NCBI RefSeq assembly: GCF_004337365.2
Contig: NZ_CP044016.1
Span: 1,426,001-1,490,000, forward strand
Direction of reading: 5' to 3'
Length of the DNA: 64,000 nt
From: Rhizosphaericola mali
GTDB lineage: Bacteria > Bacteroidota > Bacteroidia > Chitinophagales > Chitinophagaceae
Under the pieces are notes generated by a model. It was given only the letters and a program-made list of their open reading frames with translations. It was not told the origin of the DNA and made no database searches. Both the position numbers and the translations under genes were made by a program. This document shows positions 1 through 14,500 of the stretch, one piece after another. The stretch's first letter is position 1; every line of letters starts with the position of its first letter.

Positions 1-840
1 AATGCGGAAAATGCTAATGTGAGCAACATTCATAAATTTATCCATCAGGGCACGACAGATCTAAAGGAGAAAAAAGACTTATTGATTAACTCTGAAATCC
101 CACTGATTAATTTCTGGTACCCGTATTATAAGAAAATAGGTGTGTATAGCTATTTTACCCCTCAACAACAGGAATATGAAACCGGGTCATCAATAACAAA
201 GCATATTCGGTCAGATTATGGTCATCGAACAAGGATTAGTAATGACGCTATCACCATTCAAAACCTTTATATCCAATCATTTTTGTCCCGTACAGAGACC
301 AAAGATGAGTTGGCCTTTTCTAATGAACGGATTATCTGTAGGATAAAAGGTATTAAAAAGTATTATCTGGCAGATAGTAGTCATGCACAATTTACTTATG
401 ACCTGATAGCTGATAGTAGCATATCCCCTAAAACCATTTACCGGTATATGCAAGCTCAACTTGACTTGTTCCTCGGGGCCCAGTCTCATCTTGAAAAAAT
501 ACCAAGACCTTGTTTTGTCATCAAGGCAGATAAAAGCAAATTGCATATAAACAATGGCAATGTTAAGCGTTTCTCAAAAACCAATCAAAATGTTTATTCA
601 GCACAGAATTTTGTATGGTTATGGATAAAAGATATTATAACCAATAAGTATAATGGCCCCACCCATCAGGTTATTGACGAAACTGGAATAGCTCCTAATA
701 CCAAAATGGATTTAGTTTTCGACATGAACCACTGGGATAACCTGCCCTTGCTCAACAAGGAACTGGCAGCTTACGGACTGTCGGTGACTTTGGAGGACAG
801 AATGCTGGATTGTATTGTGATAGAAGATGCTGAGGAGTAA
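1..840 (+). CDS. C-terminal part of a DUF3738-like protein (5' end outside the window)
   Basis: The reading frame is open from base 1, so the true start probably lies to the left; the GTG at 19 is only the first possible start inside the window. The last ~70 residues (VIDETGIAPNTKMDLVF, then LPLLNKELAAYGLSVTLEDR and VIED) resemble the end of DUF3738/TIGR03435 proteins, where a D-TG-x-YDF stretch is followed by a long amphipathic helix and a 'vdvlVID' strand. In Bacteroidota this domain often follows a thioredoxin (TlpA-like) domain, which would lie outside the window. No enzyme motif is visible in what remains. The function is unknown; the family match is by eye and moderate. Confidence 0.5.
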   Translation, partial: NAENANVSNIHKFIHQGTTDLKEKKDLLINSEIPLINFWYPYYKKIGVYSYFTPQQQEYETGSSITKHIRSDYGHRTRISNDAITIQNLYIQSFLSRTETKDELAFSNERIICRIKGIKKYYLADSSHAQFTYDLIADSSISPKTIYRYMQAQLDLFLGAQSHLEKIPRPCFVIKADKSKLHINNGNVKRFSKTNQNVYSAQNFVWLWIKDIITNKYNGPTHQVIDETGIAPNTKMDLVFDMNHWDNLPLLNKELAAYGLSVTLEDRMLDCIVIEDAEE

Positions 841-918
841 GAATACCGAATAATAAAGGGTTGGCATTGTTTCTGTTCATTTAATTGATTAATTTTAATG
901 TCTAAAACAAATTTTACT

Positions 919-1218
919 ATGAACAAATCTGAATTAATAGACTTATTGGCTTCTAAAGCTGGCACAACCAAGACCGATGCCGGTAAAGTATTGGACGCTT
1001 TTACCGAAACTGTAACCGAAACTTTAGCCGGTGGCGACTCTGTTACCTTAATTGGTTTTGGAACATTTAGCGTGTCTGAACGTTCTGCCCGTAACGGTCG
1101 CAACCCGCAAACCGGTGAAACCATCAAAATCAAAGCCAGCAAAGTTGCGAAGTTCAAGGCCGGTAAAGTAGTTAGCGAAGCCGTAAATGCAAAGCAGAAG
1201 AAAAAAGCTACGAAATAA
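919..1218 (+). CDS. hup: HU-family DNA-binding protein
   Basis: This is a small nucleoid protein (99 aa) that binds and bends DNA as a dimer. It begins MNKSELIDLLASK, as bacterial HU proteins do. It carries the family signature GFGTFSVSERSARNGRNPQT in the beta arm and ends in a lysine-rich tail (KQKKKATK). An upstream in-frame ATG at 898 would add MSKTNFT, but HU proteins nearly always begin MNKxxLI, so 919 is preferred. It looks monocistronic, with a hairpin terminator just downstream. The family call is secure; the exact start is less so. Confidence 0.93.
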   Translation: MNKSELIDLLASKAGTTKTDAGKVLDAFTETVTETLAGGDSVTLIGFGTFSVSERSARNGRNPQTGETIKIKASKVAKFKAGKVVSEAVNAKQKKKATK

Positions 1219-1247
1219 TCCAGTTTTAATCTACTATTTTCTACAGT

Positions 1248-1275
1248 CCTCGTCTTATGGCGGGGATTATTATTT
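1248..1275 (+). terminator. Hairpin terminator after the HU gene
   Basis: CCTCGTC pairs with GGCGGGG (7 bp with G-U pairs) around a TTAT loop, followed by a T-rich tract. It lies 30 bases past the HU stop codon. Confidence 0.6.
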
Positions 1276-1475
1276 AAAGACATAAGATGATACACAAGGA
1301 GTGCAATGGTTTAAATAAATCCGTATACAGGCACTATTGGTACCCATATTTTAATAAAAATAAACCCAGAGGTATTAAATAGAAGTTGTAATCGATGAAT
1401 GCCCATTGCAATGCGAAATATTAAATCCACACTTCAAATTTTGTATCTTAGCCCAAAATCATTTAATGAAAAGAA

Positions 1476-2276
1476 ATGGCTGAAATTGGCATTACATACA
1501 AAAAACTTATAGATAATATTGGTTCTACTTTACAACGGACCCGTGACAACGCAGCTCGAGCTGTAAATAAAGAACTGTTAACGGCAAATTGGGAAATAGG
1601 AAAACATATTGTAGAATTTGAACAAAATGGAAAAGAAAAAGCTGAATACGGAAGCTCCTTACTAACTAATCTTTCCAAAGACCTTAAACAAGCTTATGGT
1701 AAAGGATTTGGGAAAAGCAACATCTATTTATGTCGCCAATTTTATTTGAAGTTTCCAATTTTCCAGACACTGTCCGGAAAATTGAGTTGGAGTCATTATG
1801 CAGAATTATTAACCATTTCTGACGATACATCACGTGCATTCTATGAAAAACAGTCCGAAATGGATAATTGGAGTTTTAGAGAGTTGAAACGGCAAATTGA
1901 TTCCTCCCTTTTTGAACGGCTTGCTTTGAGTAAAGATAAAGATGCCGTATTGGCATTGGCCGAAAAAGGACAAATAATAGCGGAACCTAAAGACATTATC
2001 AAAGATCCCTATATTTTTGAGTTCTTAGGTTTACCCGAACAAAATATTGTAAAAGAGCGGAAATTGGAAAGCAAACTGATTGACAATCTTCAACAATTTC
2101 TACTTGAATTAGGAAAAGGGTTTTCATTTGTTGCTAGACAATTTAAAATCACCGTTGACAATCAACACTTTTACATAGACTTGGTTTTTTATCACCGTAT
2201 TCTGAAGTGTTTTGTCCTTATTGACCTCAAAACTCAAAAAGTAAAGCATCAGGACATTGGGTGTAGAAACCGATGA
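1476..2276 (+). pseudogene. YhcG-type (DUF1016) PDDEXK nuclease gene, 3' truncated by a mobile element
   Basis: The N-terminal domain (WEIGKHIVEFEQNGKEKAEYG, then SWSHYAELLTI) is the DUF1016 N-terminal winged-helix region. The C-terminal part (GKGFSFVARQF, then DNQHFYIDLVFYHR and CFVLIDLKT) is the start of the PDDEXK nuclease domain with its core acidic and lysine residues. Intact relatives continue for some 70-100 residues after 'KHQDIG', but here homology stops exactly there and only CRNR follows. The break coincides with the left end of the 130-bp inverted-repeat element at 2261. The family is widespread and often linked to mobile elements or defence loci. The product is unlikely to fold as a complete nuclease. 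Confidence 0.85.
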
Positions 2277-2390
2277 AATTTCCCCCTTAATACCAAAATT
2301 GATTTGATCCCCGGAATGTATTAATAAACAATAAATTGCATTGGGTCTATAAAATTGGCGGAATGTGTCCATTGTCCTTGGTTTTTCCAA
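2261..2390. repeat. 130-bp inverted-repeat (MITE-like) element, copy 1
   Basis: This 130-bp unit has imperfect 13-bp ends, GTGTAGAAACCGA on the left and TTGGTTTTTCCAA on the right. It aligns without gaps, at roughly 78% identity by eye, with the reverse complement of 47097-47226. Its left edge is exactly where the YhcG-type gene loses homology, and its right edge is where a tyrosine-recombinase fragment begins. No target duplication is visible. It encodes no convincing protein. Confidence 0.65.
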
Positions 2391-2580
2391 TATGCTGCGA
2401 CATAGTTATGCCACTCATTTATTGGAAGATGGTGTCAATATCGTTACGGTGAAAAATATGTTAGGCCATGCCCATATAGAAACGACAATGGTATATCTAC
2501 ATGTTTGCCAAATACACGAACAGTTACCTCAAAGTCCACTTGACAATGTATTTGCCTTATGCAGTCGAACCATGAAGTAG
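2391..2580 (+). pseudogene. Tyrosine recombinase, C-terminal fragment
   Basis: Only the end of the catalytic domain remains. [17 protein letters not shown] holds the box II histidine, and [15 protein letters not shown] holds the second histidine and the nucleophilic tyrosine. The arginine of box I and the whole N-terminal core-binding domain are missing. In Bacteroidota such recombinases often travel just upstream of an IS91-type transposase, as here, and the transposase start codon overlaps the last 22 bases. The apparent upstream codons (MSIVLGFSN) come from the 130-bp repeat, not from the recombinase. It cannot be active as it stands. Confidence 0.8.
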
Positions 2581-3656
2581 CGGATGTAATACGTCATGTA
2601 AATTTATCTCAACTTAATCTAAATGTCCATCACGAGAAAACCTTACGTACCTTGTCTTTGTGTAGAACTGCGGCATTGGGTGGTCATGTGGACGGCTGTG
2701 ATAAATGTGGCAATGTCTCCATCAGCTACAATAGCTGTAGGAACCGTCATTGTCCCAAATGTCAAGGTCATAAACGATTGGAATGGATACACAAAAGAGA
2801 ACAGGATCTGTTGCCTTGTACGTATTACCATGTAGTGCTTACCCTTCCTGCAGAACTCAACAAACTAGCGCTGTACAACCCGAGTTTGGTGTACAAATCT
2901 TTGTTTGAAGCGGCGTGGGCAACCTTGTACCGATTTGGCAAGACACAGCAAGTTCAGTTGGGTATGACCTGTGTGTTGCACACATGGGGGCAAAACCTGA
3001 GTTTGCATCCTCATTTGCATTGCATTGTACCTGGTGGAGGTATCGACACAAATAGAAGATGGCAAAAACAAACTAGAAGCGATAAATATCTTTTTCCCGT
3101 AAAAGCGATGAGTAAGGTTTTTCGAGCAAAATATGTATCGCAATTACGTCAAAATGGAATTACAGACAAGAAGCTCCTCCATAGTTTATTTACCAAAGAT
3201 TGGATAGTGTATGCCAAACGTCCTTTTGGAGGACCGAAACAAGTGATTGAATATTTGGGTAGATACACACATAAAGTAGCGATCAGCAATCATAGAATAC
3301 AAAACATCACTCCTACCCATACGAACTTTACTTACAAAGACTATAAGGATCAAGGCAAGACGAAGGAGATGATACTGACTAACCATGAATTTATCCGAAG
3401 ATTTTCAATGCATATTTTACCTAAACGATTTGTACGAATACGCCATTATGGAATCTTGAGTAGTAGTTGGAAACGGGGCAAACTGCAACAACTACAAACC
3501 ATGCTATATGTTGCGAGACCCGAAGTCAAGCCCAAAACGATGCTACGCAAATGCCCTTGTTGTAAAATGGGAACATTGATCACTATAGAAGTCTTCGGCA
3601 AGCGAGGACCTCCCAAGATTTACATAGTGAAAAAAACATCTGCCGCACAAGCGTGA
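2559..3656 (+). CDS. IS91-family HUH (Y2-type) transposase
   Basis: This 365-aa protein should nick and join single-stranded DNA during rolling-circle transposition. An N-terminal zinc-binding domain has C47, C50, C60, C65 and C68 (the last three in CRNRHCPKC). The HUH metal site is HPHLH at 150-154. The catalytic tyrosines are Y232 and Y236 in [11 protein letters not shown]-terminal CPCC motif may bind a further zinc. Length and domain order match intact family members, so the protein could be functional, although its element has lost its left part. It overlaps the recombinase fragment by 22 bases. Confidence 0.93.
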
Positions 3657-3806
3657 GCCTTGTGGGTGGGGGATGTTTTGCCTATACAGACTATAAAAGC
3701 CCACCAACTAAAACGAACTACGACTATAAATGAAAAAAGCAGGTCTACAACCTGCTGACATCTCTAAAATCACAATTTGAAAAGTCCATAAGATTGTACC
3801 GGTTCC

Positions 3807-3861
3807 GTCCAACGGGAGTTTCATGTCTAGCCCTTCGGGCAAAACGAAACTCTAGTTATTG
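3807..3861 (-). repeat. attC-like site 1
   Basis: The left core GTCCAAC fits RYYYAAC exactly and the right core is GTTATTG. Between them GAGTTTC (3816-3822) pairs with GAAACTC (3846-3852), with an inner GCCC-TTC-GGGC hairpin. The 55-bp length is near the short limit for attC. It lies 10 bases past the stop codon of the alpha/beta hydrolase gene. It could alternatively be part of the IS91 terminus. Confidence 0.6.
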
Positions 3862-3871
3862 GCTGCTGTCT

Positions 3872-4840
3872 TTATTTTTTCACAATTTTTATCCAGTTTT
3901 CAATTTCTTGGAATGTTTCTTCTGAATTTTCAATCCAAGGAAAATGTCCCGCCTTGTCAATTAATACAAGTTTAGAATTTGGTAAAACGCCATGTAATTC
4001 TTGAGCGTATTTAGGCTGATTATTTGTGTCGTATTTTCCGTTTATAATCAAAATATTAGTTTTAATTTTGGGAAACAACGTTTGATAATTCAGATATTTT
4101 TTTCGTTCTTCTTCTGTTTCTACAGCATAAACATCTTTAATAGGTTTTCGTCTTCCTGCTTTCGAATTTTCTTTCACGATTGGTATTACTTTTTGGGCAC
4201 TTTCTTCATCATAACACCACCATTTTATTGTAGCATCAGAAATGTCTTTTCCTTCTTCATTTATTTGAGTTTTATGTTCAATCATATAATCCCAATCTTT
4301 TATTACTTGAGCGAACCAAGCAGATTCTTTGGATCTTTCATTTTCTGCTTTTTTTCTTCTTTCAATCATTTCTTTTTGAGTCCCAACATAGCTTGTTCCT
4401 GTTAAAATTATTCCAGATGTACTTTGTGGAAATTTTAATGCATATTCTAAAGCGATTGTACTTTGGTCCGAATGGCCAAATATCCAGATTTTATCAACAT
4501 TCAATTTCTTTCTTAAATCATCGATTTCCTGTACGATAGAATCTTGATTATACTCTTCTATCGTTTTTGGAGTTTCAGATTTTCCAGTTCCTCTTGGTTC
4601 GTAATATACTATTGTAAAATAGCTTTCCAGTGGTTTTAAAGTCAATTCATAACCAATTTTTCCAGAACTTAAATGTCCGACAATCATTATCGGACCATTT
4701 CCTTTAATTGTGTAGTTTAATTTTAAATCTCCAATTTTTTCAAAATAATTTCCATTTGGAATTTTGCTTTGACAACTTACAATTTTGGAAAAAGTCAAAA
4801 AGAGAATAAGTAAATTTAATATTATGAAATTCAATTTCAT
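3872..4840 (-). CDS. Exported alpha/beta hydrolase (cassette gene)
   Basis: This 322-aa serine hydrolase has an N-terminal signal with a possible lipobox (IVSC, Cys23), so it probably acts in the periplasm or on the outer membrane. The nucleophile elbow is GHSDQ with Ser124; the likely acid is Asp271 (NGKYDTNN) and the likely base His299 (AGHFPW). The oxyanion-hole region near residue 56 reads GHLSSG instead of the usual HG-G. A lid-like insertion rich in charged residues lies around 150-220. Proline iminopeptidase-like or esterase activity is possible, but the substrate cannot be read from the sequence. It is the sole gene of its cassette. Confidence 0.85.
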   Translation of the reverse strand: MKLNFIILNLLILFLTFSKIVSCQSKIPNGNYFEKIGDLKLNYTIKGNGPIMIVGHLSSGKIGYELTLKPLESYFTIVYYEPRGTGKSETPKTIEEYNQDSIVQEIDDLRKKLNVDKIWIFGHSDQSTIALEYALKFPQSTSGIILTGTSYVGTQKEMIERRKKAENERSKESAWFAQVIKDWDYMIEHKTQINEEGKDISDATIKWWCYDEESAQKVIPIVKENSKAGRRKPIKDVYAVETEEERKKYLNYQTLFPKIKTNILIINGKYDTNNQPKYAQELHGVLPNSKLVLIDKAGHFPWIENSEETFQEIENWIKIVKK

Positions 4841-4860
4841 AAACGGTTTTATAAGATTGC

Positions 4861-4997
4861 AGACAACGCACCTGGCTTGACGGTTTGTGACGAAAATAGT
4901 AATTGTTCAGTTCAAATTTAGTACAAAAGTTCAATAATGATATTTAGTTGAGCCGATATTCTTTCGCCCGTCACAAAATGTCAAACTTATGTTACAC
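4861..4997 (-). repeat. attC-like site 2
   Basis: The cores are AGACAAC on the left and GTTACAC on the right. Inside, TTGACGGTTTGTGACG pairs almost fully with the CGTCACAAAATGTCAA arm, leaving a long imperfect central stem. It shares most of its 137 bases with sites 3 and 4. It sits 27 bases past the stop codon of the DUF1877 gene. Confidence 0.72.
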
Positions 4998-5024
4998 GCC
5001 GTTGTGTATAGGGACTTTGGTTTA

Positions 5025-5549
5025 TCAACCTACAAAGACAAGAATGTAATCTTGTTCTTGCTTTGCTTTTTTAATGATTGATTTAAGTTCTTCAAAATCT
5101 TCTGATATTTGTCGCATATTGAACGCTTGTTCTGTTTCGTTATCATTATGCCAAATTTCAGGATAGATACCGTTGTTGTTTAGCTCATCTGCATTATATA
5201 AAGAAATCAAATCGGTCTCGGAAATATCCGTAATAATTTCATTCAACTTCGAAATATCCGAATTGTCTAAATAAGGAATAAAAAATCCACTTTCATAAGC
5301 CTCAAATTTTTCTTCTTCCGTTAAACTTTCGAACTCTTCCTGAGCAGTTAGTTTTTGAGGATTAAATATTTCGTTTACAACTTGGATAGTTGAATCGTCT
5401 TTTCCTTTAGATAAAATATATTCAAGAGCCATAAAGGAAGCTTGAAATGTTGAATAACCTTTGGCAGAATCTGCATCAAATTCTTGCTTATTATTTAGTT
5501 CGTCAAAAGTAACTTGAGAAATTCTGTAGAGGGTTGCGGCTTGGCTCAT
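5025..5549 (-). CDS. DUF1877 (YfbM-like) family protein (cassette gene)
   Basis: This soluble protein has 174 aa. It opens MSQAATLYRIS and ends with the family-like stretch FEELKSIIKKAKQEQDYILVFVG; YfbM of E. coli closes in the same way with a helix and a short strand ending VIVG. The open frame extends upstream to 5645, but those 32 codons lie inside attC-like site 3 and are not expected to be coding, so the start at 5549 was chosen. The biochemical role of the family is unknown. It is the only gene of its cassette. Confidence 0.78.
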   Translation of the reverse strand: MSQAATLYRISQVTFDELNNKQEFDADSAKGYSTFQASFMALEYILSKGKDDSTIQVVNEIFNPQKLTAQEEFESLTEEEKFEAYESGFFIPYLDNSDISKLNEIITDISETDLISLYNADELNNNGIYPEIWHNDNETEQAFNMRQISEDFEELKSIIKKAKQEQDYILVFVG

Positions 5550-5572
5550 ATTCGTAATCGCTTTGTAATGGC

Positions 5573-5708
5573 GTGTAACGCACCGGGCTTGACGGTTTGT
5601 GACGAAAATAGTGATTATCAGTTCAAATTTAGTACAAAAGTTCAATAATGATATTAAGCTGAGCCGATATTCTTTCGCCCGTCACAAATCGTCAAACTCA
5701 TGTTACAT
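5573..5708 (-). repeat. attC-like site 3
   Basis: The cores are GTGTAAC (5573-5579) and GTTACAT (5702-5708). The outer stem TTGACGGTTTGTGACG / CGTCACAAATCGTCAA has one mismatch. The right core contains the stop codon of the GNAT gene (minus-strand TAA at 5705-5703). Confidence 0.75.
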
Positions 5709-6266
5709 GTCGTTGTTTTCTAATTTTACAAAGTCTGAATGAAGTAGAGAAAACATTTTCATGTTAAAATATTTATCGTTCCAAAACATCCAGTCACGAA
5801 GAGTTCCTTCGTTTTGAAATCCTACTTTGTCAAGTACTTTTTCGGAAATGATATTGCCTTCCATTACTTCAGCTTCAATTCTGTTTACCTGAAGTTGATT
5901 AAAACCAAATTTTATTACAGTCCTTAAAGCTTCTGTTATATAACCATTGTTCCAATACTCTGATTGTAAATCGTAACCAATGTTTGCCCTATGTTTTGGA
6001 GTAAAGTTATTATATCCAATTGTTCCGATTATTGAATTGTGGTCTTTGAGAGAAATTCCCCAACGAATACCAAGATTATCCTTGTATCGATTATGAAACC
6101 AATCGACGATTTTTTGAGCTTCTTCGATTTTAGAAAGTCTTATTATATTATAGAACTCAGTTACTTTTTCGTCACTAAATAACTGAAAAATATCTGATAA
6201 ATGATTTTGTTTGATCTCAATAAGATTAAGTCTTCTAGTCTGTAGAGTTGGAAATTTTTCGAACAT
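5703..6266 (-). CDS. GNAT N-acetyltransferase, RimJ/RimL-like (cassette gene)
   Basis: This 187-aa acetyl-CoA-dependent transferase begins with the RimJ/L-style LQTRRLNLIEI strand. It has the mid-domain WGISLKDHNSIIGTIGYNNF and the acceptor-side segment RANIGYDLQSEYWNNGYITEAL, which includes the CoA pyrophosphate loop. NRIEAEVMEGNIISEKVLDKVGF is the usual C-terminal helix and strand. Relatives modify ribosomal-protein N-termini, small molecules or antibiotics; the substrate cannot be told here. The last codons (ENNDM and stop) run into attC-like site 3, so the cassette end supplies the stop codon. Confidence 0.9.
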   Translation of the reverse strand: MFEKFPTLQTRRLNLIEIKQNHLSDIFQLFSDEKVTEFYNIIRLSKIEEAQKIVDWFHNRYKDNLGIRWGISLKDHNSIIGTIGYNNFTPKHRANIGYDLQSEYWNNGYITEALRTVIKFGFNQLQVNRIEAEVMEGNIISEKVLDKVGFQNEGTLRDWMFWNDKYFNMKMFSLLHSDFVKLENNDM

Positions 6267-6309
6267 TTAATTTTTTATAGTTAGCTATGAGTTTAGATCG
6301 ACCAATGAC

Positions 6310-6447
6310 ATGTAACGTTCTCGGGGTTGATGTTTTTGTGACGAAAATAGTGATTATCAGTTCAAATTTAGTACAAAAGTTCAATAATGATACTCAGTTG
6401 AGCCGATATTCTTTCGCCCGTCACAAATCGTCAAACTAATGTTGGGC
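6310..6447 (-). repeat. attC-like site 4
   Basis: The cores are ATGTAAC and GTTGGGC (an exact GTTRRRY). Its central ~110 bases are nearly identical to site 3, including TTTGTGACGAAAATAGTG and CTTTCGCCCGTCACAAATCG. It lies 9 bases past the stop codon of the next gene. Confidence 0.75.
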
Positions 6448-6456
6448 GCAGGCTTT

Positions 6457-7164
6457 CTAATAATCAAGTTTCATTGGTGTTTTATTGTCAACTGAAAATT
6501 TAGCCAAGTCATATAAAATAGAAAAACCAAACTTTGCTTTTTCATCAAACGAATTTGTATTAGGGTCAATTTCTTTTCTCCATTCATTAATAATATTGTT
6601 ATCAGCTTTCCATGTGGCGTTATTTAATTTGTCAAGGTCTTCTAAAAGTCTTAGTGATGATGCAATTCCAACTTCCTTTTCTGTCGGGTCGCTATAACGG
6701 AAAGTAAACTGAATGTCTATTGGTAGCCATATTTCACAATCTTGTGTCAAGCTCGGATAAATTGTTTTGTAATCCTCTAAAAGAGATTTCTTGAAAATTT
6801 CTGATGATGTCCATTCTTTATCAAAGTCATTAGGTATTACATTTTTTTGTTCATTGTACAAAGCCCAAAGAATAACAGCGCCAAAACAATCCCAATCTGG
6901 TTTGTCGGTATGATAAGGCAAGTCATTACTTTCAATCCAAAATATTGAAGTTTCACTATGTGCTTTTAATGCATTAGCTAAGTGATCTCTCCAGACTTCA
7001 CTTATTTCTTGAATCTCACTAACATTTGTCAACACATCTTTTGGCTGATTTTGTCTTACCACTTCTACAGGCGTTCCTGTTCTATCTGACCATTGTTGAA
7101 TAACAGTTTTCCAATTACCTGAATAATACCTTGTAAATGTCCCAGCGTAAATATCTAAACCCAT
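6457..7164 (-). CDS. Uncharacterised cytoplasmic protein (cassette gene)
   Basis: This 235-aa protein begins MGLDIYAGTFTRYYSGNWKT. It has no signal peptide or membrane segment and is rich in Trp and acidic residues. The MGLDIY start and the DKPDWDCFGAVILWALY core give the impression of a conserved family of cassette-borne proteins, but no function is known to me. The flanking attC-like sites 4 and 5 show that it forms a cassette by itself. No catalytic motif is evident. Confidence 0.72.
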   Translation of the reverse strand: MGLDIYAGTFTRYYSGNWKTVIQQWSDRTGTPVEVVRQNQPKDVLTNVSEIQEISEVWRDHLANALKAHSETSIFWIESNDLPYHTDKPDWDCFGAVILWALYNEQKNVIPNDFDKEWTSSEIFKKSLLEDYKTIYPSLTQDCEIWLPIDIQFTFRYSDPTEKEVGIASSLRLLEDLDKLNNATWKADNNIINEWRKEIDPNTNSFDEKAKFGFSILYDLAKFSVDNKTPMKLDY

Positions 7165-7198
7165 AAATTTTGAAAGTTTAAGTTGATGGTCAGCTTGC

Positions 7199-7394
7199 GC
7201 CTAACGTGCCGCGGCTTGGCGCAGGAGCGGAAAAGAAAGCACAAAAGTTCAATTCAGTACAACTGCAAGCAAAACCGCTTGATGTTGCTAAATTACAAAA
7301 CCAAAAGCATAAATCAAGCGGTTTTTGCGTCCAAAATAGTACAAATGTTCAGCATTTATTCTCCAGCCGCACTTGCGCCAAACCGATGTTAGCG
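7199..7394 (-). repeat. attC-like site 5 (long form)
   Basis: The left core GCCTAAC fits RYYYAAC exactly and the right core is GTTAGCG. The outer arms GGCTTGGCGCAGGAGCGG and CCGCACTTGCGCCAAACC pair imperfectly. A strong inner dyad (AAAACCGCTTGAT / ATCAAGCGGTTTT) could also act as a terminator. At 196 bp it is long, and its centre differs from sites 2-4. Confidence 0.68.
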
Positions 7395-7403
7395 GTTCGT
7401 TTT

Positions 7404-7760
7404 TTATTTTTCTAATGTTGTTATCCATTTTATTTGTCCGTCTGTTTCGCTACAAATTTCAAAACCGCCCATTCCATAATCGTAGCTAAAACAATATTCA
7501 ATTTTTCTACTTTTTACAAAGTCTGTAAGTTCTGATGAAACAGAAATCATTTTATGGAACAGGTCTTTTATTTCGTCAAGTTCTGTCAAAGCTCTGTTCT
7601 TTGTCAAATATTGAAATTCATTGCAACGTGTCCAACCTGTTACTGAAAAATGAGAATTGTCTTTTGCTCCAAAAGTCAGGTCGCCAACTTTGAATGAGTG
7701 TCCGTCCGTCAATAAAACGATTGCATTTTTAATTCTATACTTCAATTCGTTTTCTGTCAT
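7404..7760 (-). CDS. Small uncharacterised protein (cassette gene, second of a pair)
   Basis: This 118-aa soluble protein opens MTENELKYRIKNAIVLLTDG. It has no signal peptide or recognisable domain; the end is beta-rich and aromatic (FSYDYGMGGFEI). It starts 3 bases after the stop codon of the 98-aa gene upstream, so the two are probably translated together and share one cassette. Such tight pairs in cassettes are often toxin-antitoxin or toxin-immunity pairs, but nothing in the sequence shows that here. Confidence 0.65.
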   Translation of the reverse strand: MTENELKYRIKNAIVLLTDGHSFKVGDLTFGAKDNSHFSVTGWTRCNEFQYLTKNRALTELDEIKDLFHKMISVSSELTDFVKSRKIEYCFSYDYGMGGFEICSETDGQIKWITTLEK

Positions 7761-7763
7761 TTT

Positions 7764-8060
7764 TTAGTCCAATGTTACACTACCAATAATGATATAATCA
7801 AAGTCGTCAGAGTTTTCTCTTACAAGTACGCCACCAACTGTTACGGAGTAATATTGTGAAAGAGGTTTAAATGTTGTCTTTTCGTATCTTGGTCTAAGTT
7901 CAAGCAAATCGCTTGTCATTTTCTTACCTGTCAATGGTTTTGTTAGTTTGACCAAAAGTTTGTCCCCGCCACGGTCAGAAAGAATTGTTCCAAAAAGATT
8001 TTCTTTCCAATCCCAAGGTTCGCTTACTATTATTCTAATTGTTTGTCCTTTTAAACTCAT
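7764..8060 (-). CDS. Small uncharacterised protein (cassette gene, first of a pair)
   Basis: This 98-aa protein opens MSLKGQTIRIIVSEPWDWKE and looks all-beta (alternating hydrophobic residues, GTILSDRGGDKLLVKLTKP, and VTVGGVLVRENSDDFDYIIIG near the end). It may be a small barrel, but no family is recognised. It is the gene at the promoter-proximal end of the array and sits 3 bases ahead of the 118-aa gene. No attI-like site or integrase gene is seen further upstream. Confidence 0.65.
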   Translation of the reverse strand: MSLKGQTIRIIVSEPWDWKENLFGTILSDRGGDKLLVKLTKPLTGKKMTSDLLELRPRYEKTTFKPLSQYYSVTVGGVLVRENSDDFDYIIIGSVTLD

Positions 8061-8230
8061 TCGTTGGTCAGTGTCGTGTCATGTCCTACTATAGGTTGAC
8101 TCTATTTTTGGGTTAATGAATCAAATTTAGTAATATTACAGTTCGGACAAAATCCTAACATTAATGTGTCAGACCAAACGGAAACGGGCTCTGCAGGGCG
8201 CAACCCGTTAGGGATAATCTGAACAGTGGA

Positions 8231-8260
8231 AATAAAAAATTGGATGCAAATCGTGCATCT
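8231..8260 (-). terminator. Hairpin terminator of the LytTR/kinase operon
   Basis: Read on the minus strand, GATGCA-CGATT-TGCATC forms a perfect 6-bp stem followed by CCAATTTTTT. It lies ~85 bases past the stop codon of the response-regulator gene. Confidence 0.65.
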
Positions 8261-8343
8261 GATTTTCTAAATTCATTTTTCATTGTAAATGCCTAAGAAA
8301 ACCCTTTTTGTCAGATTAAGTCTTAGTTATTACAATTGATCCA

Positions 8344-9072
8344 TTATCTCTTAAATATTCTTTTTTCTACATAAGCTTCATAAAAGGCCTCTCGGTAAAT
8401 GTTTCCTATTGGAATTTCATCATTTTGTATAAAAACGCTATTGTTGTCGAGTGCCGTAATATGTTGCACATTGATGATATAAGATTTACTGATTCTAAAA
8501 AATGTATTCTGAGGTAGTTGCTGATGAATCGTTTTGATATTCATTGCTGCAATTATTTTTTGACTATTGGTGTGTACGATAACGTAGTCTTTCAAACCTT
8601 CTATATACAAAACTTCGTTGTAGTTTACCTTATGAATTTTACGATCTGCACGTATAAAAAAATAATCTTCTGTATCAGAAATATTCGTTTCTATAGAGGA
8701 TATACTTTCTTCGGAATGTAATAGTTGATGATAATTGATGGCTTTTCGAATGGCTTTTTCAAATCGTTCCTTTACTATCGGTTTTACCAAATAATCAATC
8801 GCATCGACCTCATAACTTTCCAAAGCATATTCTTCGTAAGCTGTTGTAAATATAATTAAGGTGTCTGATTCTTTTATTTGCTTGGCAAAATCCAACCCAT
8901 TTACGCCCGGCATATTGATGTCTAGAAAAATCAAATCTATTTTATCCAAAACCTCTTTTGCCAATAGTGGACTGCTAAATTGTCCAATAATATTGATCTC
9001 TTTACAATCGCTCAGCAATTGCGTGATCGCTTCTCTTGCAAGAGGTTCGTCATCAATGATGATACAGTTCAT
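8344..9072 (-). CDS. LytTR-family response regulator
   Basis: This 242-aa protein has an N-terminal receiver domain (acidic pair at Asp7-Asp8, phospho-acceptor Asp51 in LIFLDINMPG, Thr76-Thr77, Lys97 in YLVKPI) and a C-terminal LytTR DNA-binding domain from about residue 135 (FFIRADRKIHKVNYNEVLYIEG, then FFRISKSYIINVQHI). Its start overlaps the kinase stop by four bases (ATGA), so the pair is translationally coupled. It should receive phosphate from that kinase and bind imperfect direct repeats. The divergent RND efflux operon is a candidate target by position only. Confidence 0.95.
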   Translation of the reverse strand: MNCIIIDDEPLAREAITQLLSDCKEINIIGQFSSPLLAKEVLDKIDLIFLDINMPGVNGLDFAKQIKESDTLIIFTTAYEEYALESYEVDAIDYLVKPIVKERFEKAIRKAINYHQLLHSEESISSIETNISDTEDYFFIRADRKIHKVNYNEVLYIEGLKDYVIVHTNSQKIIAAMNIKTIHQQLPQNTFFRISKSYIINVQHITALDNNSVFIQNDEIPIGNIYREAFYEAYVEKRIFKR

Positions 9073-10145
9073 AACAATAATTTTAGATTGATTTCATAGG
9101 TTTTGTCCTGCAATTCATTTTTGAGTAGGTATCTATTGGGGTAAATTAATTCTAATCTTCTTTTTACATTATTTAGCCCAATACCATGATTGACGGAATT
9201 ATTTTCTTTCTTAAAATTCAAGGGCAAACTATTTATACAACTAAAATACAACACTTTTCCTTCCTTTCTAAAATTGATATCTATAAAGGTCTCCGCCTCT
9301 ATGTCTGCACTATATTTTACCGCATTTTCTACGAAATTGGTAAATAACATGGGGGCTACTAGAAAATCTTCCATATCTCCTTCATTGCCAATTGTAAAAG
9401 TAAAATTGCTCCTTCTTATTTTTTCCAAGTTAAGCATGTCATTTAAAAACCTAATTTCAGATGATAGCAGCACTTGCGATCTTGCTGAGTCATATAATTG
9501 ATAACGTAAAATATTACTCAATCGCACTAATACTTCTGACGCTTTATCTGGATCTTTCTGGGTTAAAACATTCGCGTTGTTTAAGGTATTGAATAGAAAA
9601 TGCGGTGTAATTTGATTTTTTAATTGTTCTAATTCCGTATGTAAATTTTCTTTTTCTAACTCATTAATTCTTTCCGCATCGGTCAACCAGCGTTGAAATA
9701 GTTTGATCGCTGTAGTCGCCGCTATTAATACCAAATTAAAAAATGGAAACATAAATAATCCTTTGTGTAAAAGATTATAAGAGTCTTCCGCATTCACCAT
9801 ATATTTCTTAAACGTCTGATCATATAAGATCATGGCCAAATAAGTAATAAAGGTTGAAAGAAGGATTAGAAAAATGAATTGCGAATATTTTTTCTTGAAC
9901 AAATATTGCGGTATAAAAAAATACATATTCACGTAAAACATCGCAAACATGAAGAGATCCATCCATATCTGATGATAAGTATCAAACGGTTCTACAAATA
10001 TTTGTTTGCCTATATAGTTAAACAATATAATTACAATTAGGCAAAAGATATGTCTTGCCACACGCCAAGTTTTTCCTAGCATGATACTTTGTAAAAAATT
10101 GCTTTCATCGGTTTGTACTTTAGTTAAAGCCATAAACTTAACCAT
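9069..10145 (-). CDS. LytS-like sensor histidine kinase
   Basis: This 358-aa inner-membrane kinase has about four hydrophobic segments (near 30-50, 60-80, 88-108 and 130-148), a short coiled coil (ERINELEKENLHTELEQLKNQ) and the His_kinase motif ITPHFLFNTLNN with His182. The ATPase part has NFVENAVKYS as N box and GIGLNNVKRRL as G box. There is no separate sensor domain, so the membrane bundle probably senses the signal. It is first in a two-gene operon with the LytTR regulator and divergent from the RND genes, with 190 bases between the two starts. Confidence 0.94.
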   Translation of the reverse strand: MVKFMALTKVQTDESNFLQSIMLGKTWRVARHIFCLIVIILFNYIGKQIFVEPFDTYHQIWMDLFMFAMFYVNMYFFIPQYLFKKKYSQFIFLILLSTFITYLAMILYDQTFKKYMVNAEDSYNLLHKGLFMFPFFNLVLIAATTAIKLFQRWLTDAERINELEKENLHTELEQLKNQITPHFLFNTLNNANVLTQKDPDKASEVLVRLSNILRYQLYDSARSQVLLSSEIRFLNDMLNLEKIRRSNFTFTIGNEGDMEDFLVAPMLFTNFVENAVKYSADIEAETFIDINFRKEGKVLYFSCINSLPLNFKKENNSVNHGIGLNNVKRRLELIYPNRYLLKNELQDKTYEINLKLLL

Positions 10146-10335
10146 TTTAACAAAAATAGAAATATTCCCTTAGCATATTTCCATTATTATACTAAAGTAG
10201 TTCTTCTTTATACAAAATAAAAAATAGTAGCACCTAAAACAAATTTGCTATAAAAATTAGGCTCGTTGGTAGAATAATACCAAAATGCGTTTAGTTTTTT
10301 GGGAGTTTCGCTCTATTCGTAAAAATATAGACAAT

Positions 10336-11523
10336 ATGAAAGTCCGTTTTTCAGTCAACAGTTATCGATTCCAAATCGCCCTTCTGCTAGCTATAGCTGT
10401 TTTTTCCCTATGGAGTTGTGGTAGCAAACAAAATGCTCAAGACAATGCAACTACCGCAGCACCGAAATATAAAGTTTATAGCGTGATAGATACTTCTGCA
10501 CTATTATACACCGAATATCCTGCAACTTTAAAAGGAGTTCAAGACATAGAAATTCGTCCCAAAATTGATGGTTATATTGATAAAGTTTGGGTAGATGAAG
10601 GGCAAGCCGTTAAAAAAGGACAAGTGTTATTCACTATCCGAAATCCGGAGTACGAACAGTCATTGCGCTCTGCAGCTGCAGCAATAGAAAGCGCTAAAGC
10701 ACAAGTCGCTTCTGCGAAATTAGCCGTATACAAAACTATTCCTTTGGTCAAAAAAGGCATTATCAGCAACTATACTTTACAAGCGAATGAGTTGACCTTT
10801 GCTTCGCAAAAAGCGCTTTTAGCAGAGGCCGTTGCTACCTATAAAAATGCGCAAGTTAATTTGAGTTACACCACAATAACGAGTCCTGTAAGCGGTTACG
10901 TCGGCACATTGCCTATGAAATTGGGCAGTTACGTGAGTGCTACATCTACTGACCCTTTGACGACTGTTTCGGATATCAATAAAATCTATGCGTATTTCAG
11001 CATTAGTGAAAAAGATCCTTTGTTTTTGAGTCAAGACAAAAATTTATCTTTTGCAAAGAGAATAGAGCCTTTGCCTAATGCAAATTTATTATTGACAGAT
11101 AATGACATTTATCCCTTAAAAGGTAAGATGGAAACGGTGAGTGGCTTGATTAATACATCTACTGGATCCTTCAATATAAGAGCAGGATTTGACAATCCGC
11201 AACATACCTTAAGAAGTGGTGGTACGGGTACGATTCGTATTCCCGAGCAATTAAGCAATGCCATCGTCATTCCCCAAAGTGCTACGAATGATATTCAAGG
11301 AAAAATCTTGGTCTATGTTTTACAAAAAGACAGTTCTATCGTATCTGCAAAAGTCAGCGTAAAAGAAGTGCCTGGAGGTCAATACTATGTAGTCAATTCA
11401 GGATTAAAAACAGGTGATAAAATATTAGTCGAAGGCGTGGGAATTGTTGCAGAAGGAACTAAAATTTCTCCTAAATTAGTCGGTCCAAGCCAAGCATTGG
11501 CAGTAGATTCTACTTCATTATAG
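10336..11523 (+). CDS. RND efflux periplasmic adaptor (membrane fusion) lipoprotein
   Basis: This 395-aa AcrA/MexA-type adaptor links the inner-membrane pump to the outer-membrane channel. The start at 10336 gives a clean lipoprotein signal (FSLWSCGS); the frame also opens at 10285, but that adds 17 residues before the signal. The halves of the lipoyl domain are seen in IEIRPKIDGYIDKVWVDEGQ and in the stretch ending SPVSGYVGTLPMKLGSYVSA, with an alpha-hairpin of alternating Ala and Lys between. The beta-barrel and membrane-proximal domains follow. It lies 42 bases upstream of the pump gene. Confidence 0.95.
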   Translation: MKVRFSVNSYRFQIALLLAIAVFSLWSCGSKQNAQDNATTAAPKYKVYSVIDTSALLYTEYPATLKGVQDIEIRPKIDGYIDKVWVDEGQAVKKGQVLFTIRNPEYEQSLRSAAAAIESAKAQVASAKLAVYKTIPLVKKGIISNYTLQANELTFASQKALLAEAVATYKNAQVNLSYTTITSPVSGYVGTLPMKLGSYVSATSTDPLTTVSDINKIYAYFSISEKDPLFLSQDKNLSFAKRIEPLPNANLLLTDNDIYPLKGKMETVSGLINTSTGSFNIRAGFDNPQHTLRSGGTGTIRIPEQLSNAIVIPQSATNDIQGKILVYVLQKDSSIVSAKVSVKEVPGGQYYVVNSGLKTGDKILVEGVGIVAEGTKISPKLVGPSQALAVDSTSL

Positions 11524-11565
11524 TTAGGAATTGTTCAAATATATTTCAAATTAATTTTCGACAAG

Positions 11566-14500
11566 ATGTTCAAAGTTTTTATAAAAAATCCCGTACTATC
11601 AACGGTCATTTCCATATTGATTGTTATTCTAGGGATTATCGGAATCATATCTTTACCCGTGGCGCAATATCCAGAAATCGCACCGCCTACAGTTCAGGTT
11701 TCTACCACATATCAAGGTGCGAGTGCCGAGGTCGTGATGAATAGTGTTATCGTACCATTGGAAGAGCAAATTAATGGGGTGGAAAACATGAGTTACATGA
11801 CCTCCACAGCGTCTAGTGATGGTACCGCAACAATTCAAATTTATTTCAAATTAGGTACCGATCCCGATATGGCGACGGTCAATGTGCAAAACAGGGTTTC
11901 ACAGACATCAAGTTTGTTACCCGCGGCCGTCACTACGGCTGGAGTTACTACGCAAAAACAACAAAGTAGTAATGTATTAATTTTTGGTTTGTATAGTGAT
12001 AATCCAAACTATGATGCAACATTTATCCAAAACTATGCGAATATCAATATCATTCCTCAAGTAAAAAGGGTGAGCGGCGTTGGTAGCGCCTCTGCATTTG
12101 GTACGTTGGACTATTCTATGCGTATCTGGCTAAAACCAGATGTGATGGCGAGTTACGGTATCATTCCTGATGATATTAATACGGCGTTAGCAGAACAAAA
12201 TATCGAAGCTGCACCAGGCTCTTTGGGAGAAAGAGGCAAACAATCTTTTCAATATACTTTAAAATATAAGGGTAGATTAACGAGTGAAAAAGAATTTAGT
12301 GACATAATAGTTAAAGAAACATCCGACGGACAAATCTTACGTCTAAAAGATGTTGCTCGTATAGAATTGGGTTCTCAAACGTACAATTCTCTCCAAAAAA
12401 TAAATGGTCACCCCGCTATCGGTGTCGCTGTTACCCAAACTGCGGGTTCCAATGCGCAAGAGGTTATTGATCAATCCTTAAAAGTGTTAGAGGATGCGAC
12501 ACCAAACTTACCTAAAGGATTGCATTTCACTACCATGGTTAATATCAATAAATTCTTGGATGCATCTATTGAAAAAGTGATCCATACATTAATAGAAGCG
12601 TTTATCCTGGTATTTATAGTTGTATTCATTTTCTTACAAGATTGGCGATCAACATTGATTCCAGCAATTTCTGTCCCGGTAGCGATTGTAGGTACGTTTT
12701 TCTTTCTGAATCTATTTGGCTTTACGATAAATCTGTTAACACTTTTTGCCTTGGTATTGGCAGTGGGAATTGTCGTAGATGACGCCATTGTGGTGGTAGA
12801 AGCCGTTCATGCGAAAATGGATAAAGGCGAAAAATCTGCTTTGAATGCTTCATTAAATGCAATGAACGAAATCAGTGGTGCGATCATCAGCATTACACTA
12901 GTGATGGCGGCGGTATTCGTTCCGGTAAGTTTTATCAGTGGTTCCACTGGTGTATTTTACAAACAATTTGGTTTGACTTTAGCCATTGCGATTATACTTT
13001 CTGCGATTAATGCTTTGACTTTGAGTCCCGCATTATGTGCTATATTTTTAAAACCACATGAAGAAGGCGAACATAAGAAAAAAGGATTTTTACAAAGATT
13101 CTACGATTCTTTCAATACTGCCTTTGACGCAACTACGGCTAAATATAAAAAATCTGTTTCCTTTTTTGCCAAAAAGAAAGTATTGACATTAGGCGTTATA
13201 GTTGTATTTGGTGGGCTTTTATTTTACTTAATGAAATCCACACCTTCCTCTTTTGTACCCGATGAAGATATGGGAACAATTATGTGCGATATTAGTTTGC
13301 CTGCGGATGCTTCCATGGAAAGAACCAATGTAGTAGCAACAGAAGTAGAAAAATTAGCCAAAACATTGCCCGGCATTAATAATACCATGCGCATTGTAGG
13401 ACAAGGTATGTTGAGTGGAAAAGGAAGTAACTATGCAATGGTAATTATCGAGTTGAAAGATTGGAAATTACGTAGTGCGAAAGGGCAAGATGTAAATTCG
13501 CTTATTGGACAATTATTTGGAAAAGTGACCACTATAAAAAATGCGAAAGTAATTTTCTTCCCATCTCCCACAATCAATGGATTCGGGGTATCTGGCGGTT
13601 TTTCCTTCCAATTGCAAGATAAAACAGGAGGCGACATTCAAAAGTTCAATACGATTGCACAGAAATTTTTAGCAGCATTGAATCAAAGAAAAGAAATTCA
13701 ATATGCATCCACTTCATTCAACCCTAGTTTCCCACAGTATGAAGTGGAAATTGATGTTGCTAAAGTGAAAAAAGCAGGCTTCACCGTCAACAATGTTTTG
13801 GATGCGATGGAAGGTTATTATGGTGGAGTGTACGCATCGAACTTTAATAGTTATGGAAAATTGTTCCGTGTAACTTATCAGGCAGATGCAGACTATAGGG
13901 CAGATATCAACTCCTTGAATTTAATCAAAATCAGAAATACCAATGATTCTCTAGCTCCGATCAGCGCATTCGTTACTTTGAAAAAGATCTACGGACCACA
14001 ATCATTGAACCGTTTCAATATGTACACAGCTGTTTCCGTGAATGGTTCGCCCAATTCTAATTATAGTTCTGGTGATGCAATTAAAGCAATCAAGGAAGTC
14101 GCCGCAGAGACTTTACCTTCTGGTTATGGTTACGAATTCTCAGGTTTAACAAGAGAAGAGGTAAACTCTGGTACGCAGACGGTATATATATTCTTACTAT
14201 GTATCATCTTCGTTTACTTCTTGTTGAGTGCGCAATACGAAAGTTATATTTTGCCATTTGCCGTATTGTTGCCATTAACTATAGGTTTGTCTGGTGCATT
14301 CATATTTGCCAAAATATTTGACATAAGTAATAATATTTATTTGCAAATCACTTTGATTATGCTCATTGGTTTATTGGCAAAAAATGCGATTCTAATAGTT
14401 GAGTATGCCTTAGATCGTCGTCGATTAGGTATGCCTATAGTACAAGCTGCGATTGAAGGTGCGTCTGCACGTTTCCGCCCGATTTTAATGACTTCTTTTG

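Follow-up and report, generated by a model that had tools for sequence, protein, structure and literature searches.

The window analysed here is a stretch of 64,000 nucleotides (C1:1426001-1490000) from Rhizosphaericola mali (Chitinophagaceae), whose 4.70-Mb genome (G000, the host genome below) consists of two contigs, C1 and C2; positions given without a contig are those of the window. Near its start lies a series of minus-strand genes with palindromic sites that resemble attC, the recombination site of integron gene cassettes. The original prediction took this series for an integron-type array with five attC-like sites, each 3' of a minus-strand gene, and without an integrase. Judged on sequence, the series is an integron cassette array consisting of genes and four attC-like sites (S2 to S5) instead of five, because the supposed fifth site (S1) is the end of an IS91-type insertion sequence (IS) element. 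The tyrosine recombinases linked to arrays of this kind in related genomes lack an insertion specific to the known integron integrases (IntI).

Cassettes and attC-like sites of the window

Sites S2 to S5 each lie 3' of a gene in the minus-strand series, and each complete cassette would consist of a gene and its attC. Cassette a (7205-8135, minus strand, as are all that follow) lacks its head and holds two small genes (7404-7760 and 7764-8060) without a Pfam family; a scan for cassette chains found no cassette start matching the R'' end of S5. Cassette b (6316-7204) consists of a gene for a 235-residue protein (6457-7164), again without a Pfam family, together with S4, and its start is complementary to its end at 6/8 bases. 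Cassette c (5579-6315) combines a GNAT acetyltransferase gene (5703-6266; PF13302, E 1.1e-28) with S3, and cassette d (4867-5578) a DUF1877 gene (5025-5549; PF08974, E 2.7e-12) with S2, both with a complementarity of 7/8. The last one, cassette e (3867-4866), contains an alpha/beta hydrolase gene (3872-4840; PF00561, E 4.2e-20), and its attC seems to have been cut by the IS91-type element right after the R'' core; when S1 is taken as its attC, the complementarity is just 3/8. A PADLOC search with the six cassette proteins returned no defence family at E<=0.001, and the 235-residue protein has one distant relative in plasmids (34% identity).

Sites S2 (4861-4997), S3 (5573-5708) and S4 (6310-6447), all on the minus strand, belong to subtype A and score 161.3, 161 and 152.9 bits, respectively; they are near-copies, as originally described, with identities to S3 of 81% and 96% across 109 bases, and S4 has R'' GCCCAAC and R' GTTACAT. 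S5 (7199-7394, minus strand) is of subtype B and features a long nested palindrome with R' GTTAGGC and R'' CGCTAAC in gene orientation; the same subtype is also present after C1:327819 and C1:345704. The exact cores reported at first are in place (GCCTAAC at 7199, GTTGGGC at 6441 and GTCCAAC at 3807), and an imperfect dyad is conserved in the sites. A stem is seen in the predicted folds of all four sites, with a clear gain over shuffled sequences just for S3 (z -2.3 on the plus and -3.0 on the minus strand) and S5 (bottom strand, -37.4 kcal/mol, z -4.1). Bottom-strand folding, a check proposed with the original prediction, was set aside as sole proof of attC because it is too weak for two of the four sites.

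The sites S5-S4-S3-S2 form the longest chain in the window, with three self-matching cassettes. One of 20 block-shuffled windows also gave a chain of three, and single matching pairs are not in excess (19, compared with 19-46 in the shuffles), so that chain length alone is weak evidence within the window. An Rfam search of positions 1-14000 gave two matches, both under the gathering score, and the exact pattern of a subtype-A stretch had no match in a scan of the genome contig collection.

Both ends of the array are interrupted. Next to cassette e lies the IS91-type element (2365-3866, plus strand), in which a 71-residue C-terminal fragment of a tyrosine recombinase (2365-2580) overlaps a Y2 transposase (2559-3656) that is followed by the 3' end of the element; its proteins match PF00589, PF14319 and PF04986. 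S1 (3803-3866, plus strand) is the terminal palindrome of this element and directly adjoins the last cassette at its R''-like end (GCAGCCAA). It was ruled out as an attC because the same terminus recurs elsewhere together with the 3' end of the element, about 250 bp of which accompany it on C2 (C2:7998-8246, 84%); shorter, degraded copies of the terminus are found at C1:348136-348251 and C1:4061367-4061424. Read by eye, three arrays have the IS91-type end directly against the apparent R'' of their last cassette, and the shorter fourth copy, at C1:4061367, borders an R''-like TTAGCGGTAG in the same way. As its end meets an R''-like core at four places, the element seems to land in, or target, attC sites, although these are few cases. 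The best NCBIfam match of the 71-residue fragment is the integron integrase (61 bits); as the integrase of the window array it was rejected, being incomplete, with part of the catalytic domain absent, and placed at the wrong end. On the other side, positions 8136-8342 share 91% identity with C2:22216-22423, where the copy overlaps an open reading frame (ORF) resembling IS orfA; this is likely the remnant of an IS that cut the array head, an assignment based on the appearance of the ORF and not on a family search.

Shared cassettes and attI-like leaders in the host genome

At E<=2e-13, S3 has 23 copies in the genome, itself included: three in the window, 15 at C1:310898-346486, two at C1:1764849-1766223, one at C1:1192784 and two on C2. 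A large array elsewhere in the genome comprises 23 junctions and also holds other subtypes (B, which is S5-like, and C) and, twice, an ORF-less cassette. In this array, complementarity between a cassette's start and its own end is 6.73/8 bases (22 cassettes), and the corresponding figure for both ends of a single physical site is 3.29/8 (21 sites); shuffled pairings had a mean of 3.45, and 0/20,000 were as high as 6.73. The end tags were read by eye from the sequences, with site s9 set aside for want of a clear R', and the match between start and end spans about ten bases (GTTRNNNGCAA-like). Such complementarity of a cassette start to its own end indicates integron topology, as from circular cassettes and not as from a miniature inverted-repeat transposable element (MITE).

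Cassette b has a second copy at C1:312238-313124, 1.1 Mb away, with 880/894 aligned bases identical (98%). The shared segment extends from CGTTAGGC of the upstream site, via the gene and its own site, to the next GTTA, with both edges at GTT; integron crossover takes place at G^TT. In its two places the cassette has a different site before it and a different gene after it. A fixed gene order had been named as grounds for refuting the original prediction; as examined within the host genome, the neighbours of this one window cassette differ between its two arrays. A second shared cassette, with a gene for a 137-residue protein, occurs at C1:325409 and C1:1765673 (96%), its left edge lying about seven bases or less from GTT. 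Cassettes in different neighbourhoods thus amount to two cassettes in three arrays of one genome.

The two copies of cassette b differ mainly in their attC (6310-6447 in the window and C1:312995-313130); the window copy of this attC shares its ending, ACATCAACCCCGAGAACGTT, with two other sites of the large array, a pattern that recombination between attC halves might leave. The ORF-less cassette (GTTGGTACGCAAG...) lies at C1:311925-312278 and C1:328467-328924 (loci L021 and L022), with a different preceding site each time. Two similar proteins of about 190 residues adjoin two of the site loci (C1:309582-310157 and C1:1193400-1193972). The two subtype-A attC-like sites on the 30-kb contig C2 are at C2:10612-11312 (L025); since C2 also carries genes that look ParA-like and relaxase-like, judged by appearance, cassettes may also travel on a plasmid.

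Two array heads (C1:310189-310351 and C1:344782-344938) have a common leader of 157 bases (94%), whose 3' core, considered attI-like, reads TTGCGTATATTT-N(3-4)-GTT or a variant, the pattern continuing as GTTRNNNG. No full leader was found outside the host in the 147 genomes of the family, three relatives having partial matches. The core occurs at 30 places in 20/147 family genomes, corresponding to 19 of the 100 genera, and a reversed control pattern gave two matches. Within 1.5 kb downstream of the 30 cores, an end matching the start tag was present with at most one mismatch in 16 cases, with two mismatches in five and in no form in nine, a count made without a shuffled control. Promoters of Bacteroidota have a -7 box, and because of its resemblance to this box the TATATTT part of the attI-like site may double as a cassette promoter.

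Recombinases linked to attI-like sites and arrays

Canonical IntI, defined here by a TIGR02249 score over 265 bits, was found in 0/147 family genomes, host included; in a sample of the phylum, 93/345 genomes exceed this cut-off and, among the matches listed, one (G180) is of the same order and the others are marked as same phylum only. The host genome gives 24 tyrosine-recombinase matches, and a 359-residue protein (C1:4350541-4351620) is the sole intact member of the array-linked type found there. The lack of an integrase noted originally therefore holds for the window array, and no platform of integrase, attI and array lies in the window, but it does not hold for the chromosome, where no intI exceeds the cut-off and this recombinase, from the array-linked clade, is present. 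The 359-residue protein has its best plasmid relatives in Chryseobacterium and Rufibacter, among others, which fits Bacteroidota.

In several relatives (G068, G080, G015, G072, G128, G012 and others) such an integrase is accompanied by an attI-like site, an array or both; the integrase mostly points towards the cassettes. The 385-residue recombinase of G068 precedes an attI core and 13 chained, self-matching cassettes, and the 406-residue one of G080 precedes an attI-like motif and eight such cassettes; in G015 a divergent, shortened recombinase lies beside an attI core and matches to the attC model. For cassettes with both ends readable, the ends match at 6/6 bases in 13/13 cassettes of G068 (3.25 for the ends of the same site; 0/20,000 shuffles) and in 6/6 cassettes of G080 (3.8; 27/20,000 shuffles). 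Thirteen further loci were scanned, and five gave a chain of three or more.

A profile (A3) of eight such proteins gave 73 matches at E<=1e-60 in 57/147 family genomes, host included. Thirty of these matches were inspected, and an attI-like motif was present in the flanks of 11, where base-shuffled flanks predict 0.05; in ten loci it lies 84-542 bp downstream with the same orientation, and in one the arrangement is divergent. Five of the 11 loci (G068, G080, G072, G128 and G012) were known beforehand and used in the profile, and six (G100, G062, G059, G060, G046 and G025) are new. The attC model (R1) is based on 18 subtype-A sites, all from one genome, that remained after four of 22 extracted sites had been set aside, and it is likely to overlook other subtypes. 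Of the 22 integrases in genomes with both features, five lie no more than 3 kb from a match to it, where 0.07 would be expected, and eight no more than 15 kb away, where the expectation is 0.33. One round of genome scoring applied stricter filters. At the genome level the association is weak and fell short of expectation, the integrase co-occurring with the attI core in 13/20 core-bearing genomes (p 0.013).

Outside the family, four of 14 inspected regions hold three to five chained cassettes, the chain beginning 87-240 bp away from a recombinase, and no chain longer than two arose in three shuffles of each region; ten of the 14 have no chain of at least three, and in two no recombinase ORF was detected by motif. 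The four chains directly beside a recombinase are at L243 (G312), L235 (G326), L242 (G479) and L240 (G219). Their presence in genomes of other families indicates that the system is not confined to the family of the host.

Comparison of the linked enzymes reveals what they lack. The KDR and RHS motifs are 106 residues apart in 25/28 rows of canonical IntI, the other three having no KDR motif to measure, 64-67 residues apart in all 16 rows of array-linked and related proteins, the host 359-residue protein included, and 68 and 72 residues apart in the host's own Xer-like enzymes; only one of any identical proteins was used, and loci L177, L190, L078, L086 and nine loci of the host genome yielded no recombinase ORF by motif. 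Alignment of the recombinase with the IntI structure 2a3v leaves a gap between residues 178 and 251, where 72 residues (179-250) face 29. By sequence comparison, the array-linked recombinases thus lack the IntI insertion of about 40 residues, the IntI-specific additional domain near patch III with helix alpha-I2, a feature that was not part of the original prediction. According to PMC3053210, VchIntIA holds the first extrahelical base by P232, H240 and H241 and makes contact with the second through K209, Y210 and W219; if the numbering of 2a3v equals that of the paper, the missing stretch holds all six. Against TIGR02249, model positions of about 180-240 are unmatched. The catalytic residues appear intact, R214, K239, H303, R306, H329 and Y338, which we assign as catalytic, being invariant in 8/8 proteins.

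Four recombinases (G068, G080, G015 and the host 359-residue protein) score 179-201 bits with TIGR02249, and three full-length proteins score 202-219 bits with NF040815, for which the cut-off is 220. In a midpoint-rooted tree, built without eight of the IntI rows and without eleven other recombinases of the host, canonical IntI form one separate clade (100/100). The host 359-residue protein is sister (100/97) to the attI-linked integrase of G012, and the group holding it (98/96) contains five of the six linked enzymes, the sixth (G015) standing apart. A predicted model of the 359-residue protein (mean predicted local distance difference test, pLDDT, 80.9; predicted template modelling score, pTM, 0.60) has 2a3v as its first Foldseek match (E 3.6e-14), nearly tied with an archaeal Xer (5.6e-14), and the SPLD tail of the linked enzymes aligns with the chain end of 2a3v. 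They also possess an extra N-terminal domain (residues 7-60, beta-beta-alpha-beta-beta), for which Pfam gave sub-threshold matches only, to DUF5710 with 6/8 fragments (best E 0.0015), HARP with 1/8 (E 0.08) and three other families; an identity with DUF5710 or HARP is accordingly not claimed.

A proposed integron lineage and its competing explanations

We propose that the window quite probably holds an orphan fragment, headless and tailless, of a Bacteroidota integron array, served in its lineage by an integrase that is close to, and outside, canonical IntI and devoid of the IntI insertion. Cassettes would be excised as circles and integrated at attC or attI sites, with the crossover at G^TT, and the catalyst would be a tyrosine recombinase of Xer length with an extra N-terminal domain. 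The window array would have lost its head and tail to insertion sequences and would now be frozen or else served in trans by the chromosomal copy, since the 359-residue integrase lies alone. The integron character assigned by the original prediction is borne out by the shared cassette with GTT edges, the complementarity of cassette ends, the 23-junction array, the attI-like leaders and the platforms in relatives. That the linked enzymes recombine these very sites, that they use folded single strands and that the 359-residue copy acts on the window array are plausible extensions; for the folded single strands, the predicted hairpins of S3 and S5 suggest such use, those of S2 and S4 less so, and covariation is slight.

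Several observations weigh against this proposal. S2 (z -0.7 on the plus and -1.1 on the minus strand) and S4 (bottom strand, z -1.7) fold no better than shuffles, and covariation in the attC stem is modest, with two-sided change in 2/16 pairs, a level reached by 38/500 shuffles. The linked integrases form no exclusive single clade, and in VIA-align 2a3v (Z 20.3, root-mean-square deviation (rmsd) 3.7) comes second to an archaeal Xer (Z 23.2, rmsd 9.2). No attI-like motif is present within 1.5 kb on either side of the gene for the 359-residue protein, and its locus (L073) contains no cassette chain; 19 of the 30 inspected integrase loci likewise have no such motif, just some of them being cut by a contig end. 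Genomes with attC-model matches are not significantly enriched for the integrase (18/35, Fisher p 0.11).

An explanation that we regard as possible but doubtful, and that is compatible with our proposal, is that the integrase works in the manner of Xer on double-stranded palindromic sites, the layout being integron-like and the chemistry different. The enzyme has Xer length and no counterpart of IntI residues 179-250, with K209, Y210 and W219 of VchIntIA, and circularised cassettes would have near-perfect palindromic ends. However, within an array the ends of one site match poorly beyond GTT/AAC, and the conserved imperfect dyad suits hairpin sites better than symmetric double-stranded cores. 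The catalytic-motif spacing is similar to that of Xer proteins (XerA, XerC/D) and the NF040815 score falls just under the cut-off; in contrast to Xer, the enzymes have the N-terminal extra domain, the SPLD tail and the linkage to attI-like sites and cassette arrays.

It is unlikely that the arrays are ordinary clusters of attC sites lacking integron integrases (CALIN), that is, substrates of a canonical IntI that has been lost or visits on plasmids, with the insertion-less recombinases as bystanders or housekeeping enzymes akin to Xer. According to PMC9668308, CALINs are common among bacteria, and canonical IntI does occur in the phylum sample, once in the same order; yet the family in which none of the 147 genomes exceeds the cut-off is the one with platforms of attI-like site, array and insertion-less enzyme, and chains lie beside such enzymes in other families too. 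Mobilisation of the array by the IS91-type element is very improbable: three arrays have its terminus directly after their last cassette, and its recombinase fragment resembles an integron integrase, but it accounts neither for the internal cassette edges nor for the arrays in relatives, and 71 residues do not make a complete catalytic domain. Insertion of MITE-like or repetitive extragenic palindromic (REP)-like elements after genes, which the near-copies S2-S4 with their internal dyads might recall, can practically be dismissed, as the ends of one copy should match and do not (3.29/8, compared with 6.73/8 for ends of the same cassette), and the unit moved is a whole gene plus site with edges at GTT.

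The system as proposed resembles the sedentary chromosomal integrons and CALIN of Vibrio, Xanthomonas and others in its one-direction cassettes, GTTRRRY/RYYYAAC-type cores, G^TT crossover, ORF-less cassettes and several arrays per genome. It differs from them in a linked integrase without the IntI insertion, in the recurring attI core TTGCGTATATTT and in a start/end match of about ten bases instead of the seven of the textbook attC core. From canonical IntI (TIGR02249, 2a3v), with which the enzymes share the first structural match and sizeable profile scores, they are set apart by scores below the cut-off, the unmatched model positions and the separate clade. In Treponema, intI reads towards attI, as stated in PMC3607928; those are intI systems, unlike the insertion-less integrases here, of which loci G012 and G015 are divergent.

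Bacteroidota are listed among the integron phyla in PMC8618304, and intI from the Bacteroidetes/Chlorobi group is mentioned in PMC2426708. PMC9024848, from the authors of IntegronFinder, presents Bacteroidetes integrons as few, with only In0 in the authors' earlier survey and then a complete one in Salinibacter ruber, besides Chlorobi and Ignavibacteriae, and describes the extra domain as distinguishing integron integrases and as accompanying the use of folded single-stranded DNA. Among the papers listed in the literature searched, which left subscription journals and preprints outside, none was seen to describe insertion-less integron integrases in Bacteroidota. More broadly, we lean towards the view that Bacteroidota possess a distinct and widespread integron lineage, whose integrase would recombine cassettes without the IntI additional domain, perhaps with the N-terminal domain recognising folded attC, and whose arrays would have gone unseen because integron searches require the IntI domain; IntegronFinder, the standard tool, requires an IntI-specific profile, according to PMC9668308. 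A search rule based on cassette chains with complementary start and end is suggested. If a working integron does exist without the IntI domain, this domain would not be required for cassette recombination, and the origin of integrons from Xer-like enzymes would become directly testable. The same kind of cassette system spreads antibiotic resistance elsewhere, and a large phylum would then harbour an overlooked pool of mobile cassettes.

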